From contig NZ_CP101459.1 in the NCBI RefSeq assembly GCF_024362525.1, positions 124,001-188,000 of the forward strand: a DNA stretch of 64,000 nt. The letters are read 5' to 3'. The notes beneath the pieces were generated by a model. It saw only the letters and a list, made by a program, of their open reading frames with translations. It did not search any database and had not been told where the DNA came from. Positions 51,214 through 61,305 of the stretch are shown one piece after another. The first letter of the stretch is position 1; each line of letters opens with the position of its first letter. Source of the stretch: Natrononativus amylolyticus. Its GTDB lineage: Archaea; Halobacteriota; Halobacteria; Halobacteriales; Natrialbaceae. The position numbers and the translations under genes were made by a program.

Positions 51214-52600
51214 CCCCGAGGCTTGACCTCGGGGGTGAAGCCCGTCACGGAATGATACACACCACGTGCTGCGATCTCACACCCAATAAGTAGCTTTAAA
51301 TAATAGTTCGATCTCTAATAGAGTGTGACCGTCGTCAGGAATATCCAAGTCAAACTCGACATCCCCGAGGAACACCACCCCGTAGTGGATGCCACGTTTG
51401 ACGAGTTCCGCCGAGTCACCGAACCAGTCATCGACTACGGCTGGAGCGACGACCCTGACGACATCATCACCAACAAAAACCACCTCAACGAAGCCACCTA
51501 CCACGACATCCGCGACGACAGCCCACTCACCGGCGGACACGTCCAATCCGCTCGCAACCTCGCAGCCAACGCCCTTTCAAATTGCAAAGACTTGCTCGAA
51601 GACGGCAAGAACACGAGCAAGCCCGAGTTCAAGGGCACGGTCGTCACCTACAACTCAAACACCATAACGTACAACGACGACCACTGTACTCTCTCGACGG
51701 TAGACGGACGAATCCACGCCGAATACGTGTTCCCACACGACGACGAGGGAACGCCGTTCGAGGAGTACTGGAACGAGGACAAGTGGGAGAAACGAGAAGC
51801 AACGCTCCACAAGCGTGACGGTAAATACTACCTCCACGTTGCCGTTGAACACGTAGACGACACTGATTCTACCGACGAGCAGACCGAGAACGGAGTGGTT
51901 CTCGGCGTTGATTTGAACGTGGACGGCTCCCTCGCCGTCACTAGCACCGGGGCGTTCCTTGGAAACGCGGACGAGTTGAACCACAAACGCGACGAGTACG
52001 AACGCCGCCGTGGAAACCTGCAACAGACGGGGACGCGCTCGGCGCACCTTACCATCCAGTCAATTGGTGACAGGTTCGCCGAGTGGAGTCGCCACTGTTT
52101 GCACGACGTATCGAACGGCATTGTTCGAGAAGCCCGCATAAACGACTGTACGCATATCGCGTTCGAGCGGTTGACGTGGATCTGGACGCGCATTTCGAAT
52201 GCCTCGAAGTTCCAGCAGTGGGCGTTCAAAGAACTCCAGCGACAGGTCGAGTACAAGGCCGAAGAATACGGCATCGGAGTTGAAACCGTCGCGCCGCAGT
52301 ACACGTCTCAACGATGTAGTCACGGTGAGTGTGGGTTCACCCACGAAGATAACCGCGATGGTGACGAGTTCGAGTGTCTGAAGTGCGGAAAGGAGTTGCA
52401 CGCGGATTACAATGCGGCTCGGAACGTGGCGTGGCGTCTTGTCCAGAACTGGCTCAAGTCTGGGTCTGGACGGGCTACCAGTCAACTAGCCCTGAAGTCA
52501 GGAACCGTGAACGCGAATGGTCAGTTTAGACCGACTGCACTCAGCAGTTAGAGCGGGAGTTCACTGACAAGCCCCAACCCTTGAGGTCGGGGTTGTTGAC
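51214..52600 (+). mobile_element. IS1341-type (TnpB-only) element, apparently intact
   Basis: Left terminus: perfect hairpin CCCCGAGG-CTTGA-CCTCGGGG (51214-51234). Right terminus: imperfect hairpin at about 52567-52598, ending GGGGTTGTTGAC at 52600. The only gene is tnpB; no TnpA (Y1 transposase) is present, so movement would need TnpA from elsewhere. The same end types occur as orphans at 22503 and 30941. A TATA box TTTAAATA (51295-51302) lies about 25 bases before the tnpB start. Confidence 0.8.
51325..52551 (+). CDS. tnpB: TnpB, RNA-guided endonuclease of an IS1341-type element
   Basis: 408 residues from GTG. RuvC residues are all present: Asp196 in VLGVDLNVDGSLAV, Glu281 in HIAFERLTW and Asp361 in HADYNAARNVAWRL. 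The zinc ribbon is complete (Cys331, Cys336, Cys351, Cys354 in CSHGECGF...CLKCG). TnpB proteins use an omega RNA from the element's 3' end to cut DNA; the right-end hairpin overlaps the expected RNA. The family's accessory N-terminal helix region (residues 1-170) is readable. Likely active. Confidence 0.92.
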   Translation: MTVVRNIQVKLDIPEEHHPVVDATFDEFRRVTEPVIDYGWSDDPDDIITNKNHLNEATYHDIRDDSPLTGGHVQSARNLAANALSNCKDLLEDGKNTSKPEFKGTVVTYNSNTITYNDDHCTLSTVDGRIHAEYVFPHDDEGTPFEEYWNEDKWEKREATLHKRDGKYYLHVAVEHVDDTDSTDEQTENGVVLGVDLNVDGSLAVTSTGAFLGNADELNHKRDEYERRRGNLQQTGTRSAHLTIQSIGDRFAEWSRHCLHDVSNGIVREARINDCTHIAFERLTWIWTRISNASKFQQWAFKELQRQVEYKAEEYGIGVETVAPQYTSQRCSHGECGFTHEDNRDGDEFECLKCGKELHADYNAARNVAWRLVQNWLKSGSGRATSQLALKSGTVNANGQFRPTALSS

Positions 52601-55283: not shown

Positions 55284-55498
55284 GTCCCCAGTTGTATCTC
55301 GGCTATGTGGGCGATCGGAAAGAGGGTTTCTCTGCCTCGATAGAATCCGAGATCGGACACGATCGACCGCGGACGGCCTCGAGAGGGCGAATGCGTGGAC
55401 TGTAACCGAATAGACCCGGTTGACGTGCGGCCGAAATTCTATAAATCACTATGAGGTTTGTATCGTAGCGCACGCACACGCCGACTCGGGTCGGTGTT

Positions 55499-55523
55499 CA
55501 CACAGACTCACACGGTCTGTGTG
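55499..55523. promoter_or_regulatory. 9-bp inverted repeat upstream of the recombinase operon
   Basis: CACACAGAC-TCACACG-GTCTGTGTG is a perfect 9-bp palindrome with a 7-base spacer. It lies seven bases before the TATA box AATTATATGT (55530-55539), a typical place for an operator or activator site. Confidence 0.65.
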
Positions 55524-55529
55524 TCCCCA

Positions 55530-55539
55530 AATTATATGT
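55530..55539 (+). promoter_or_regulatory. TATA box of the recombinase operon
   Basis: AATTATATGT in GC-rich DNA. Transcription should start about 25-30 bases downstream, placing it near the ATG at 55572. Confidence 0.6.
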
Positions 55540-55571
55540 GTTATCTGAGTGAACGTCTCTACCAGCAGAAA

Positions 55572-55670
55572 ATGACTGTCTCAGAGTCGGATACCGGGAG
55601 AGCGAGGCTGCTACGGGTGTCGAGAGGGAGCGAATCGCGGAAGGCGGCGAAACCTGGGGGCCGACCGTGA
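55572..55670 (+). CDS. Possible 32-residue ORF coupled to the recombinase
   Basis: MTVSESDTGRARLLRVSRGS then ESRKAAKPGGRP. Its start lies where the mRNA from the TATA box at 55530 should begin, and its TGA overlaps the recombinase GTG (GTGA). It is basic, unlike most haloarchaeal proteins, so it may be a DNA- or RNA-binding peptide, or just a translated leader. No family. Confidence 0.4.
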   Translation: MTVSESDTGRARLLRVSRGSESRKAAKPGGRP

Positions 55671-56965
55671 GCGAACCCTCGAGTCAGCGTCGCCGAGACG
55701 ACTGGGACGCAAGCGACGTCCCCTGGACGATGCTCGAGGTAGAGGAGCTGGTCGACGCCTACTGGGCGGTCGTCGCACCGCGCTTCGAGGCGGACGGCTA
55801 CGACCCACACGCCGAGAAACCGACCCACGAGTGGCTTCGCGCGAACGATCTCCGGCCGCTGCTCTACGCCCTCCGGACGTACCACGACCGGACCTTTACG
55901 GAGTTCTGGCGTGAAGACCTGGGTCTCGAGGGAGAGGACTCCGGCTACGAGTGGGAGACGACCGACGAGCGAACGATCGACGCGCTCGAGTCGTTTCTGT
56001 CCTCTCGCCGGGAGCGCAAGGGGCTCGCCGAGTCGTCGATCACGACGCTCCGGTACCGACTGAACCGGTACGTCGGGGCCTACCGCGACGAAAACGGGAC
56101 GGGTGACCTCGTCTCGCCGATCGCCCGCGACAGCGACCGGCCCGCGTACGAGGCGGTGGACGCCTGCTGGGCGGCGTTCGACCGACTCCACGCGGAACTC
56201 GAGGGCGGCCAGACCAAACGCCGCATCCACCTCGCGGTCTCGAACTGGTACGCCCACCTGGTGCGCCGGAGGTGGGCGTCGGTCAATCCCGCAGAGGGAC
56301 TCGACGAGGAGTTCGACTGGTCGACGGCGGCCGACGACGACACGGATACCCCGTGCCTGTCGAGCGATCACGTCAACGCCCTGTATCGGGCTGCGGATGA
56401 CCGCGAGGAGCGACTGCTGGTTCTCGCACTCTGTGCCTGGGGGCTGCGACCGAACGAAGTCGCCCGCCTCCACGTCCAGCAGTTCGTCCTCCGGCCGTCC
56501 GACGACGACGTTCCATATATCGAGTTCCAGGAGCGCAAGAACGGTCCCGGGGAGGTGTCGTTGCTGTACGGGCGGGACGTCCTCGAAGCGTACCTCGAGG
56601 AGGTAACCGACACCGAGGGATGGAGCGGCTACCTGTTTCCCTCCCCACACGCCTCTCGGGACCACATCTCGCGGTGGACCGTCTGGAACCGATTCGACGG
56701 ACTCACAGAGCGGGCGGAGCTGCCCGACGAGATCGACGGCGTCTCCACGGCGCCGAAGATGGGGCGGCGGTTCTGGTACGACGCCTACTCCGCCTCGCTC
56801 GACGTCGTTCTCGGGAGCCTGGACGAAATCGCCGCAGAGCAGGGGAGCTCGAGCGCGGAGGTCGTCCTGCAGAATTATCTCTCGGAGAGTCGAGCGCGGC
56901 AACTCCGGCGTTCGTACATGCGCGAGCAACTGGCCGACGCCTTCGGCGAGACGCCGAACGAGTAG
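55667..56965 (+). CDS. Tyrosine recombinase (integrase-like)
   Basis: 432 residues from a GTG at 55667 (VSEPSSQRRRDDWDASDVPW). N-terminal SAM-like region (about 25-215). Catalytic region: Arg261 in AWGLRPNEVARLHV, Lys291 in FQERKNGPGE, Arg367 in PKMGRRFWYDAY and Tyr404 in VVLQNYLSES. The usual His before the second Arg is Lys364, a variant. Length and architecture resemble haloarchaeal plasmid and provirus integrases. It is followed by iterons and a ParA/partner pair. A relic of the same C-terminus occurs at 44698-44871. Cutting chemistry should be intact as Arg, Lys and Tyr remain. Confidence 0.85.
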   Translation: MSEPSSQRRRDDWDASDVPWTMLEVEELVDAYWAVVAPRFEADGYDPHAEKPTHEWLRANDLRPLLYALRTYHDRTFTEFWREDLGLEGEDSGYEWETTDERTIDALESFLSSRRERKGLAESSITTLRYRLNRYVGAYRDENGTGDLVSPIARDSDRPAYEAVDACWAAFDRLHAELEGGQTKRRIHLAVSNWYAHLVRRRWASVNPAEGLDEEFDWSTAADDDTDTPCLSSDHVNALYRAADDREERLLVLALCAWGLRPNEVARLHVQQFVLRPSDDDVPYIEFQERKNGPGEVSLLYGRDVLEAYLEEVTDTEGWSGYLFPSPHASRDHISRWTVWNRFDGLTERAELPDEIDGVSTAPKMGRRFWYDAYSASLDVVLGSLDEIAAEQGSSSAEVVLQNYLSESRARQLRRSYMREQLADAFGETPNE

Positions 56966-56982
56966 TAGTTTGTAACGGGCGT

Positions 56983-57013
56983 TTCAACCAAGTGCTTCAA
57001 TCAGGTGTTTCAA
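56983..57013 (+). repeat. Iteron cluster 1, three copies with 13-bp spacing
   Basis: TTCAA cores begin at 56983, 56996 and 57009, exactly 13 bases apart: TTCAACCAAGTGC, TTCAATCAGGTGT, then TTCAAACG. This is the first of two clusters flanking the space before the parA gene. It suggests a protein-binding centromere or origin array. Confidence 0.75.
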
Positions 57014-57150
57014 ACGTTTGCAGCAAGCAGGTCTGCCGCTGTAACAGTCCCGACGTCCCTGTGTCTGCTACGAGGGAACGAAACGGTCGAACCCGACACT
57101 CGAACGGACGCATAGCAGGTAGCAAAGGTGCGCGACGAGCGTTCGGATCA

Positions 57151-57176
57151 TGTACTTGGTTCGAGGAACCCGTACA
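57151..57176. repeat. Imperfect inverted repeat between iteron clusters
   Basis: TGTAC-TT-GGTTC-GAG-GAACC-C-GTACA: two nested perfect arms around a three-base centre with slight asymmetry. It lies between the two iteron clusters, as would a recombination core or attachment site. Confidence 0.45.
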
Positions 57177-57289
57177 ATGGATAGATACGTCCGCTGAACG
57201 CAAGCGAATGAAGCGCTCACGTGATTCAAACAGAGGGTGCAGCCCGGCGAGACAAGCCATCGTTACAAATCCGAGTTACAAGCACAAGA

Positions 57290-57320
57290 TTCAATCAGTT
57301 GTTTCAATCGTGTGTTTGGA
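57290..57320 (+). repeat. Iteron cluster 2, three copies with 13-bp spacing
   Basis: TTCAA cores at 57290 and 57303, and a degenerate TTGGA at 57316: TTCAATCAGTTGT, TTCAATCGTGTGT, TTGGAGTG. The 18 bases TTCAATCAGTTGTTTCAA differ from cluster 1 (56996-57013) at only one position. It lies about 105 bases before the parA start. Confidence 0.75.
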
Positions 57321-57387
57321 GTGTTGGTTCCGAATGATGGTTGGGGTTGTGACAAGCAAGGAATCGGCACAATCGAAACGTCTGACG

Positions 57388-57398
57388 AATACTTATGA
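57388..57398 (+). promoter_or_regulatory. TATA box of the parA operon
   Basis: AATACTTATGA ends 27 bases before the ATG at 57425, predicting a leaderless transcript. An upstream in-frame ATG at 57395 sits inside the TATA box, so it is unlikely to be the start. Confidence 0.6.
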
Positions 57399-57424
57399 TT
57401 GAAGCCACCCATGGAACGATCACA

Positions 57425-58324
57425 ATGCTATCGTACGCCGTGTACAGTGAGGCCGGTGGCGTCGGAAAAACGACGCTCGCCGCAAATCTGGCGGTCGCGC
57501 ACGCTCGAGCGGGACTCGACGTCCTCGTCGTACCGCTCGACCAGCAGGATGGCGACCTGAGCTACCTGTTCGACGTCGATCAGGACAGGGCAAGTACCGA
57601 CGTAGATACACTAGTCCATCACCTCGTCGGCCGGGGGAAAGGCGAGTTCGCAGACCTCATCCAGACGGTCGAACACGGGATCGACATCATTCCGGAGCAC
57701 AACCGCCTCGAGGACCTCGGCGAGGCACTCCGGAAAGAGCGCGAGGCGCGCAGCGACTTCGGCGAGTCGTTCCCGATGTGGACGCAGCTTCAGCGCGTCC
57801 TCCGCGAGGCGGCGATCCACAACCACTACGACGTATTGATCATGGACCCCCCGGCGAGTTCCGGGCCACACCTGTACAACGCACTCGATGCGACGCGAAA
57901 CCTCGTCCTCCCCGTCGAACCCTCCGGAAAGGGTCAGGCGTCGGTGAGCGGACTCGACGTCCTCGTCCGGAACCTAGAGGAGCAACTCGAGATCAACATC
58001 GGGGTCCTCGCCGCGGTTCCGAACCGCGTCAAAGGGACCCGAGACCAGGAGGAGATCATCGAAGAGGTCAGCGAGCAGGGGTTCGACGTTCCCGTTATCC
58101 TGCGGGACCGAACCTCACTACTCGAGGGCTGCTGGCGCGAGCGCTGTAGTGCGTTCACGTACGTGCGCGATCACCGCGAGCGCCGCCGCGACTACGAGCT
58201 CGAGACGCTCGCAAAGTTCGACACGCTGGCGCGCCATCTCGAGGCCGAGGGCGGACTCGAAGCGCCGAACCCGCCGGAGCCGGGTGCGCTCGAGGACGAC
58301 GACGAGATGGAGGTCCGTGCATGA
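57425..58324 (+). CDS. ParA-type partition ATPase
   Basis: 299 residues from MLSYAVYSEAGGVGKTTLAA. The deviant Walker A AGGVGKTT is at 10-17, the A' motif is in PLDQQDGDLSYL near 42, and Walker B is LIMDPPASSG near 140. It matches ParA/Soj-like ATPases of haloarchaeal plasmids and chromosomal islands, which move DNA or position complexes by ATP-driven binding to the nucleoid. It overlaps the small partner gene by four bases (ATGA). The iteron clusters just upstream are candidate binding sites for the partner. Confidence 0.9.
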   Translation: MLSYAVYSEAGGVGKTTLAANLAVAHARAGLDVLVVPLDQQDGDLSYLFDVDQDRASTDVDTLVHHLVGRGKGEFADLIQTVEHGIDIIPEHNRLEDLGEALRKEREARSDFGESFPMWTQLQRVLREAAIHNHYDVLIMDPPASSGPHLYNALDATRNLVLPVEPSGKGQASVSGLDVLVRNLEEQLEINIGVLAAVPNRVKGTRDQEEIIEEVSEQGFDVPVILRDRTSLLEGCWRERCSAFTYVRDHRERRRDYELETLAKFDTLARHLEAEGGLEAPNPPEPGALEDDDEMEVRA

Positions 58325-58755
58325 CCGGACTCAAATCCGGATCGGGCGACGACCTCTGGGGGGACGACGAAGAAACGGCGGACGAGGAGCCCTCGGAAGC
58401 GCCGCAGTCTTCGACCGAGGAGGCAGCCGCATCGGGGAGTTCGGACGACGAGTCCGGGGTTTCGGGCGCGGAAACCGCCACGAACGGGGCTCGTGATCAG
58501 GGACAGTCGTACCTCGTCCGGCGAGCGATTCAGGACAAGTCGGTGCAGTTCGAACGCGACGAACGGCTGACGTTCTTCGTTCACGACGACGTCGTCGAGG
58601 GCGAACGCGACCTGATAACGGACCTCGAGTCCACGCTCGGTCGCGACGTGCCCAAATTCGACGTCCGCGAGGCGGTGTACCGCGCCGCGCTGAACAACCC
58701 GGACGATGTGCTCGAGGAGTTGCTCGCGATGGGGTACTCGCTCGGCGAAGAGTAG
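58321..58755 (+). CDS. Small ParA partner (candidate centromere-binding protein)
   Basis: 144 residues: acidic, disordered N-terminal 60 (GDDEETADEEPSEAPQSST) followed by a compact C-terminal domain (SYLVRRAIQDKSVQFERDER, then DLESTLGRDVPKFDVREAVY). Proteins of this kind follow parA in haloarchaeal replicons. It is too short for a classic ParB, and I cannot tell whether it binds the iterons. It overlaps the parA stop, so both are made from one mRNA. Confidence 0.75.
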   Translation: MTGLKSGSGDDLWGDDEETADEEPSEAPQSSTEEAAASGSSDDESGVSGAETATNGARDQGQSYLVRRAIQDKSVQFERDERLTFFVHDDVVEGERDLITDLESTLGRDVPKFDVREAVYRAALNNPDDVLEELLAMGYSLGEE

Positions 58756-59538: not shown

Positions 59539-59661
59539 ATACACTGTACTGACCACATTGTTCAGACGAACGAACTACTTTCACTCCGCTTAGCAGGGCT
59601 TTATGAGTGTAGAAATTCTATGTTGGCGTACACTGGCGAGAGTCACGTGTGTCGCACGAGA

Positions 59662-61305
59662 ATGACTCGAATAGGAGCGGATACAGCGACTACACCATTC
59701 CAACGTGCCGCCCGAGACCTACTGGAGTCCAATCCTGATGCGACACCGCTTGACCTCGCAACGAGTCTTGATTTTCTTACTTCTGATAGCGATGACGCTC
59801 ATCCCGACTGGCATCCTTCATCTAAACCATTCGATGCGATGGTTCGGGCGTACTTTCTCCAACAACTCACCGGATGGTCTGACCGCGAGACGATAGAAAC
59901 CATCACTGACGAGACGGAGACGGCCACCGCATTCGGCTTCGAACTAGACGAACTCCCCAGCCGCTCCACTCTAACCCGAGCGAGGAACAATCGTCTTTCA
60001 GAACCTCTCAAGGCCTCTCTTAAATGGAAGGCTGGGTGGATTGAAGCACACCTTCAGGCAACAGGTCATCCACTCGCAACACAGGACCTCATTCCTGAAG
60101 ACAAGAGTAGTGATTCCCAAAGGAATGTGAATCGCTTCATCCGTGACAAACTCGATACCGTTCCGCGTGAGATGGTCAATCTCATCGCCGACGAATGGAA
60201 CGACTGGATTCCCGACCGCGCACGGAACGCTCAGTACCATCTGAACTCGTTCCTCGAAACCGAGTGTACGATGGGGTTAACGCGTACTGCCGCCGAGCAG
60301 GGCTCGGAAATCTATAACGACAATACTGACCGAGATGGTGGCGGCCCCGGTGGAGACCTCTTTGTAGAGTACATGAAGCGGTTAGAAAGGGCTGACGTGC
60401 TTCGGATGCTCCACAACTCGACAGGGTTGATGCTTAACACGGCGAAACGACACCTCGAATTCGAGCGCCCCGTAACCGTCGCTATTGACATAACGCTCCT
60501 CCCGTTCTACGGCGATACTGACCACGCCAAGCAGAGTGAGTGGATTGTGGATACGCGCAAGCGGCCTGACACGGAGTACGATTGGAGTTACAGGTACGCG
60601 ACCATCGCCATCGTGGGGGAGAACGTGAAGTTCATGCTCGGATTGAAGCCAGTTCACGAAGATGACAATATGGGGGTTCTAGTTGAGGAACTGCTCGACG
60701 ACGCACTCCACCACGTCAGTATTGACACCGTGTACGCAGACCGTGCGTTCGCTTCTGCAGACGTGTTAAACACACTCAACCAGCTCCCGGTTAGATACGT
60801 CATCCCAGTTCCACTGAACTCTCGTCTCAAAAACGACATTCGACGAATGAGGCATGATGTTAAGGTAACTCACGAATATCCGATTCACGGGAACGTACGA
60901 GACGGAGCCACTAACGAGAAAGTGAGAACGACCCGTGTGTTACTCCCCTCTGTCAAGAGCGAAGACGATGGAGCGGGCACTGTCGCGTTCTACACAAATT
61001 TGGACGTAGACGATGAATCAGCGGTTGAACGCGAACGGACTGAGAAGGCCATCAATAGGTATCGGCGTCGATGGGGCATCGAGAGTGCGTATCAGTCGCT
61101 GAAAACGTTCCTCCCGTGGACTTCCTCGAAAGAACCGGTAGTTCGATTGTTCCACTTTGCGTTCGGGGTGTTATTGTACAATATGTGGCGACTTATCGAC
61201 TTCCTCATCCAGTTAAGCATAGATGAGTACGAGGTGCGGACGAAGCCGCGTTTGAAATCCAAGCGATTCGTCAATGCGGTGAAATCGCGCAAACTTCTTG
61301 CGTAA
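59662..61305 (+). CDS. ISH3-like DDE transposase
   Basis: 547 residues from MTRIGADTATTPFQRAARDL. DDE catalytic residues are readable: Asp276 in VTVAIDITLLPFYGD, Asp360 in TVYADRAFASADVL and Glu474 in RRWGIESAYQSLKTF. The region KYVIPV-like PVRYVIPVPLNS and late VVRLFHFAFGVLLYNMWRLID resemble ISH3 family haloarchaeal transposases, although this protein is about 150 residues longer at its N-terminus than the type I know. No terminal inverted repeats were identified with confidence. Lower GC than surroundings. Confidence 0.82.
   Translation: MTRIGADTATTPFQRAARDLLESNPDATPLDLATSLDFLTSDSDDAHPDWHPSSKPFDAMVRAYFLQQLTGWSDRETIETITDETETATAFGFELDELPSRSTLTRARNNRLSEPLKASLKWKAGWIEAHLQATGHPLATQDLIPEDKSSDSQRNVNRFIRDKLDTVPREMVNLIADEWNDWIPDRARNAQYHLNSFLETECTMGLTRTAAEQGSEIYNDNTDRDGGGPGGDLFVEYMKRLERADVLRMLHNSTGLMLNTAKRHLEFERPVTVAIDITLLPFYGDTDHAKQSEWIVDTRKRPDTEYDWSYRYATIAIVGENVKFMLGLKPVHEDDNMGVLVEELLDDALHHVSIDTVYADRAFASADVLNTLNQLPVRYVIPVPLNSRLKNDIRRMRHDVKVTHEYPIHGNVRDGATNEKVRTTRVLLPSVKSEDDGAGTVAFYTNLDVDDESAVERERTEKAINRYRRRWGIESAYQSLKTFLPWTSSKEPVVRLFHFAFGVLLYNMWRLIDFLIQLSIDEYEVRTKPRLKSKRFVNAVKSRKLLA

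Follow-up and report, generated by a model that had tools for sequence, protein, structure and literature searches.

Type Ib partition (par) systems, such as ParF/ParG of TP228 and delta/omega of pSM19035, combine a small ParA that lacks an N-terminal DNA-binding domain with a small partner encoded directly downstream through an ATGA overlap, and direct repeats upstream of the operon are the putative centromere and operator. The stability regions of pSM19035 and RK2 use serine recombinases. In Sulfolobus, the chromosomal SegAB system consists of a ParA ATPase and a DNA-binding partner specific to archaea, encoded by a gene that overlaps the ATPase gene or comes after it; the partner binds two sites near the operon, with no described iteron array (PMC5120986). 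According to Badel et al. (2021, PMC8371274), the archaeal dif site has 11-nt arms around a 6-nt spacer, and the pR1SE1 integrases are found only in haloarchaea and their mobile elements and are poorly connected to other families. A 2016 review (PMC5120986) counted the segregation of several haloarchaeal megaplasmids and the nature of archaeal plasmid centromeres among its outstanding questions. Here, we describe a module of a tyrosine recombinase gene and an adjacent par operon in a 64,000-nt stretch of Natrononativus amylolyticus DNA (hereafter the window), which covers positions 124001-188000 of the 768,154-bp contig C2 (NZ_CP101459.1).

The module is probably central to the maintenance of a live haloarchaeal megaplasmid of 768 kb and is made up of a par cassette and a recombinase cassette that are adjacent and separable. 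By analogy with described systems, it would most likely unite a type Ib-like par system, with lineage-specific iterons as centromeres, and a tyrosine recombinase that resolves multimers at a site of its own. The replicon itself is separate and secondary: C2 is distinct from the other contig, C1 (2,976,992 bp), it carries three Orc1/Cdc6 genes (at 352344, 458828, and 717047, all above the curated cut-off), and 16S rRNA genes are located on C1 only. The ParA gene of the module is the only close ParA gene in the whole genome. An earlier note on this DNA, made from the window alone, had described an integrated plasmid-like module without a visible replication initiator, that is, either a decayed plasmid or an element kept in the main chromosome by partition and recombination. 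There is indeed no initiator within the module or elsewhere in the window, and a transposase gene adjoins the module; however, this absence is due to the window limits, as the three initiator genes are located elsewhere on the same contig. The module is therefore neither decayed nor chromosomal, given the separate 768-kb contig, the Orc1/Cdc6 genes, the lack of a 16S rRNA gene, and the intact and conserved module genes, and integration or decay is a very improbable explanation.

Relatives of the recombinase, ParA, and the partner are present in 130, 182, and 36 plasmid records, respectively, and among 125 genomes of the family the recombinase was found in 74 and ParA in 81. By identity, the recombinases fall into group I (62-77%), group II (50-55%), and group III (38-45%), and a ParA-type gene is located within 5 kb of the recombinase at 9 of 12 group I, 15 of 20 group II, and 7 of 27 group III loci. 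The arrangement of recombinase, gap, and ParA in the same order and on the same strand recurs in several families, with gaps below 800 bp (from 429 bp) at 15 group I/II loci and a gap of 801 bp at one more; the usual group II layout has ~440 bp between the two genes, and the gap of the module overall is ~450 bp. This pairing, conserved on many plasmids and across haloarchaeal families, bears out the plasmid-maintenance character proposed in the earlier note, which would have been refuted by recombinase and ParA genes that never co-occur.

The two cassettes are linked but separable, because the ParA types next to group I recombinases vary (62, 39, 28, and 21% identical to that of the window, sometimes in the opposite orientation), while the ParA genes nearest to that of the window (80-86% identical) have no relative of this recombinase alongside. 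Such variety could also arise if the recombinase, rather than resolving dimers, swapped par (incompatibility) cassettes between plasmids, since recombinases ~74% identical adjoin ParA genes 21-62% identical to that of the window, in either orientation. We consider this improbable: only one site per plasmid was found, it lies upstream of the recombinase and does not flank par, and homologous recombination and transposition could explain the swaps equally well.

The par cassette and the repeats preceding it comprise the following features:

56983-57021, + strand: iteron cluster 1, three 13-bp TTCAA units (56983, 56996, 57009)
57224-57328, + strand: iteron cluster 2, phased 13-bp units at 57224-57315, the best at 57289 and 57302; candidate centromere
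57380-57399, + strand: conserved ParA promoter region, GTCTGACGAATACTTATGAT; in close relatives, the same motif precedes the ATG of ParA by ~30 bp
57425-58324, + strand: 299-aa ParA-type ATPase without an N-terminal DNA-binding domain; P-loop EAGGVGKTT (residues 9-17)
58321-58755, + strand: partner protein, 144 aa; conserved N-terminal K.G motif, disordered linker, folded C-terminal domain at ~81-138

The start of ParA was corrected from 57395 to 57425, because close relatives begin with MLSYAVYSEAGGVGKTT or similar and because 57395 falls inside a conserved TATA-like box, TACTTATGAT. ParA matches PF13614 (4.8e-18, 66 bits against a cut-off of 27) and the ParA-like phrog_164 (2.4e-29); among solved structures, the segregation protein 1wcv is the closest to it in sequence. 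It thus combines a family match with a deviant Walker A motif near the N-terminus, as expected of a Walker-type ParA; in this clade, however, the loop (SEAGGVGKTT) has another residue in place of the signature Lys that usually precedes GG, which is a deviation. The coupling of the ParA-type ATPase to a small partner gene through ATGA, as first described, is confirmed.

The partner is conserved downstream of ParA, although by sequence it has no Pfam, NCBIfam, or significant PDB match. Its structural model has a predicted local distance difference test (pLDDT) score above 90 at ~91-140, and the best structural match of the C-terminal domain is the DNA-binding domain of F-plasmid TraM (4qpo, Z 4.4, 51 residues), which is a ribbon-helix-helix domain; Foldseek alone returned nothing significant for the partner. 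The match is no more than suggestive of a ribbon-helix-helix fold. No ParB or ParBc domain was detected in the partner or among the families listed for 20 relatives, and a type Ia ParABS system, with a ParBc-containing ParB, was rejected for the partner on this basis. As to type Ib features, the P-loop at residues 9-17 and the upstream repeats are present, and the possible ribbon-helix-helix fold of the partner is a weak match.

The gap between the two genes contains TTCAA at an exact 13-bp spacing in two clusters, as previously noted (56983/56996/57009 and 57290/57303), and the window contains three occurrences of TTCAA-N8-TTCAA, where 0.02 would be expected. Six 40-nt copies make up the full in-register family, and cluster 2 is longer than first described, running in phase from 57224 to ~57328. 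The inverted repeat reported between the clusters is weak: the arms there, of 18 nt (78%) and 13 nt (77%), match imperfectly.

The repeats follow the type of ParA. Window-type ParA genes are preceded by repeats whose strongest period is 13 or 26 at 18 of 20 unique loci, with or without an adjacent recombinase, whereas a second ParA type, which stands beside related recombinases, has a period of 8, 16, or 24 in all 15 loci. Downstream of 27 recombinases without par nearby, period 13 was the top period in none, with a mean z score for period 13 of -0.26. The repeated word itself varies by lineage, being TTACAAACGnnTG-like, TGTTCAtnnnTG-like, or ACAGATAnCTG-like. This pattern assigns the 13-bp iterons to par and not to the recombinase, and it fits a centromere or operator recognized by a co-evolving partner. 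It does not fit the suggestion of the earlier note that one DNA site serves both recombination and partition, which had drawn on the location of the iterons between the two genes: iteron period and sequence track the ParA type and occur without relatives of this recombinase, recombinases without par have no such iterons, and the recombinase has a distinct site upstream of its own gene. A shared site was accordingly rejected and is extremely improbable.

The recombinase cassette includes the gene, an upstream site, and a short open reading frame (ORF):

55440-55461, + strand: box E1 of the recombinase site, TATAAATCACTATGAGGTTTGT; family consensus TATAGCG..ATA.GRTTTA
55499-55523, + strand: core inverted repeat with 9-bp arms CACACAGAC/GTCTGTGTG and 7-bp spacer TCACACG (55508-55514); candidate crossover site and/or operator
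55530-55539, + strand: TATA-like box of the recombinase transcript, AATTATATGT; at a fixed place 3' of the core in relatives
55572-55589, + strand: box E3, ATGACTGTCTCAGAGTCG; counted from the start of the core spacer, it has ATG at +64 and a T(T/C)AGAA-like word at +73
55572-55670, + strand: leader ORF, 32 codons; overlaps the recombinase start by GTGA
55667-56965, + strand: tyrosine recombinase with catalytic set R261-K291-K364-R367-Y404; identified by Pfam, phrog, fold, and invariant residues

The recombinase matches phrog_1 integrase (4.2e-13) and, below the curated cut-off, PF00589. Its AlphaFold model (mean pLDDT 81) is closest in fold to the archaeal Xer 4a8e (Z 16.7) and also matches lambda Int (Z 13.5), and the nearest solved archaeal Xer is 17% identical in sequence. 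Residues R261, K291, and R367 are invariant in 61 of 61 sequences and Y404 in 60 (one gap). The Lys noted earlier in place of the usual His is K364, a position occupied by K (39) or Q (22) and never by H across the 61 relatives, and there is no second conserved His among the aligned recombinases. The protein thus carries the R...K...(H/K)xxR...Y set of the PF00589 superfamily within a predicted C-terminal catalytic fold. No relatives were found in 50,697 phage records or in IMG/VR, and a viral integrase or virus origin was rejected on these grounds and on the lack of a recurrent second site for group II.

The palindrome and TATA box first seen upstream of the gene are both present, as CACACAGAC-TCACACG-GTCTGTGTG followed by AATTATATGT, and CACAGAC-N7-GTCTGTG, with up to one mismatch, is single-copy in the whole genome. 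When the upstream regions of the recombinases were aligned on the core, the layout of GRTTTA at -53, core, TATA-like box, ATG at +64, and T(T/C)AGAA at +73 was constant within one base across groups I-III, that is, even among recombinases only ~40% identical, while the distance from the +64 ATG to the recombinase gene ranges from ~20 to 116 bp. In most relatives whose core is recognizable, the G-R-TTT of E1 is found at -53 relative to the core spacer; groups I and II conserve E1, and most of group III has it. The E1 of the window is degenerate yet correctly placed (GGTTTG at 55455). The core arms are similar inside each recombinase group and different between groups, and the spacers are variable. 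At the sequence level, two arms around a variable 7-bp spacer, the form of a strand-exchange site (6-8 bp spacer), are thus conserved upstream of the gene.

The group II site occurs in 19 copies in 17 of the 125 genomes, and in 18 of the 19 a recombinase gene or fragment follows ~200-245 bp downstream; an integrase would need a second site in the chromosome, and none recurs for group II in these genomes. At locus L195 (G073:C1:556257), the group II site is followed by a truncated recombinase, and at L202 (G105:C6:41661) by a recombinase start with no detected body. When the family was scanned with the short group I core (1 mismatch), matches were about as frequent as for the reversed control, which made the scan as a whole uninformative, but it exposed two orphan sites, in two genomes, which lie ~320-475 bp upstream of ParA without a recombinase. 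Both keep an E3-like word at +73 without an ATG there, which argues, from these two cases, a small number for the purpose, for boxes that belong to a DNA site and against a promoter plus a peptide.

It is possible, though unlikely, that the palindrome and boxes are instead the promoter and operator of the recombinase only, the enzyme being an integrase or acting elsewhere. The core is directly 5' of the TATA-like box, and the boxes keep fixed distances, as promoter elements do. However, the site persists beside par without a recombinase in the two genomes above, E1 is ~65 bp upstream of the core, a long distance for an element of a promoter, the core, with its two arms and variable spacer, is built like a tyrosine recombinase site, and group II has no recurrent second target. 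A recombination site, which might also serve as an operator, is the reading we prefer.

The upstream regions differ in some relatives. In a subset of group III (L140, L142, L148, L150, L157, and L159), several of them on main chromosomes, a near-identical core including the spacer (GTTTGTCCACTACACGACAACC) lies at a fixed 231-264 bp from the recombinase gene without box E1, and it may be a chromosomal counterpart of the site. The recombinases L104 and L105, ~62% identical to that of the window, have box E1 upstream but not the inverted-repeat core, and in their genomes (G006 and G001) the core stands orphaned next to ParA on a different contig; this arrangement hints that the enzyme could act in trans. 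In the three genomes with several group II sites, the co-resident spacers all differ, a number too small to test. The genomes G273 and G265, which belong to different genera, have identical pairs of group II spacers, TCTCGTA and TGGAGCA; this suggests that the same two lineages of plasmid coexist in both.

An ATG-started ORF occupies the matching place in many relatives, in either of the two non-recombinase frames, and it overlaps the conserved E3 region of the recombinase site. The ORF and GTGA overlap of the earlier note are there, but amino-acid constraint is not: the ratio of nonsynonymous to synonymous substitution rates (dN/dS) of the ORF core is 1.03, 1.07, and 0.97 in groups I, II, and III, respectively. 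The ATGA/GTGA overlap is largely dictated, in either frame, by the recombinase start codon and second residues. A conserved leader protein was rejected because dN/dS is ~1 in all groups and the frame relative to the recombinase is not constant; translation is possible and a conserved peptide unsupported.

We propose that the partner, probably a ribbon-helix-helix protein, would bind the 13-bp iterons upstream of parA, which would be both centromere and operator of par, and that ParA would move the partner-iteron complex. The recombinase would most likely recombine two copies of its own site in a plasmid dimer, with crossover at the 7-bp spacer of the core, to restore monomers, and it may also repress its own promoter by occupying the site. 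Dimer resolution would thereby give partition separate units to move. Several observations weigh against this scheme: some group I/II and most group III recombinases have no par nearby, some recombinase relatives are located on main chromosomes, L104 and L105 lack the core repeat, the fold of the partner depends on a weak match (Z 4.4), and, as the site overlaps a promoter, it could be only an operator.

The module offers concrete candidates for a haloarchaeal centromere, in the form of 13-bp iteron arrays (8-bp for the second ParA type) upstream of parA with lineage-variable sequence, and a candidate recombination site for multimer resolution that is single-copy and of fixed geometry. Iterons and site can be compared across many related plasmids and are directly testable in tractable haloarchaea, and they might be used for plasmid typing and for stable vectors. 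More speculatively, and with considerable doubt, haloarchaeal megaplasmids may carry a rigid three-part recombination site tied to par, whose variable 7-bp spacer would act together with the lineage-specific iterons as identity codes; if true, these codes would prevent fusion of co-resident megaplasmids and competition between them at partition. The differing spacers in the three genomes with several group II sites are the observation behind this reading.

Two further genes were noted around the module. An intact DDE transposase gene (PF01609 with DUF772) lies shortly 3' of the par operon (window 59620-61305, + strand), and an ORF resembling a TnpB-type IS200/IS605 accessory protein, with CxxC zinc-finger motifs read by eye, lies at window 51325-52551 (+ strand).

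In the open literature searched, we found no earlier description of this module, its site, or lineage-specific iterons. The module can be placed among several known systems. Like SegAB, it pairs an archaeal ParA ATPase with a downstream partner gene; unlike SegAB, which is chromosomal and has no recombinase, it is on a plasmid, with a recombinase alongside and an iteron array. With archaeal XerA/dif it shares a tyrosine recombinase fold, arms around a short spacer, and a single site per replicon; the enzyme, however, is plasmid-borne, with ~100 extra N-terminal residues and K/Q for the first catalytic His, and the site differs from dif in its 7-bp spacer and in flanking boxes at fixed distance. 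The recombinase family resembles the pR1SE1 family in being haloarchaeal, on mobile elements, and poorly connected to other families, and the sections of PMC8371274 consulted mention neither par linkage nor this site. As in the stability regions of pSM19035 and RK2, what by analogy would be a multimer resolvase gene lies beside a stability cassette of a low-copy plasmid, but here the enzyme is a tyrosine recombinase and the site is composite, spanning ~150 bp. Finally, the locus is like type Ib par in its ParA architecture, its ATGA-coupled small partner, and its repeats upstream of the operon, and unlike it in being archaeal, in the long disordered linker of the partner before a folded C-terminal domain, and in iterons of 13 bp (or 8 bp) that vary from one plasmid lineage to another.

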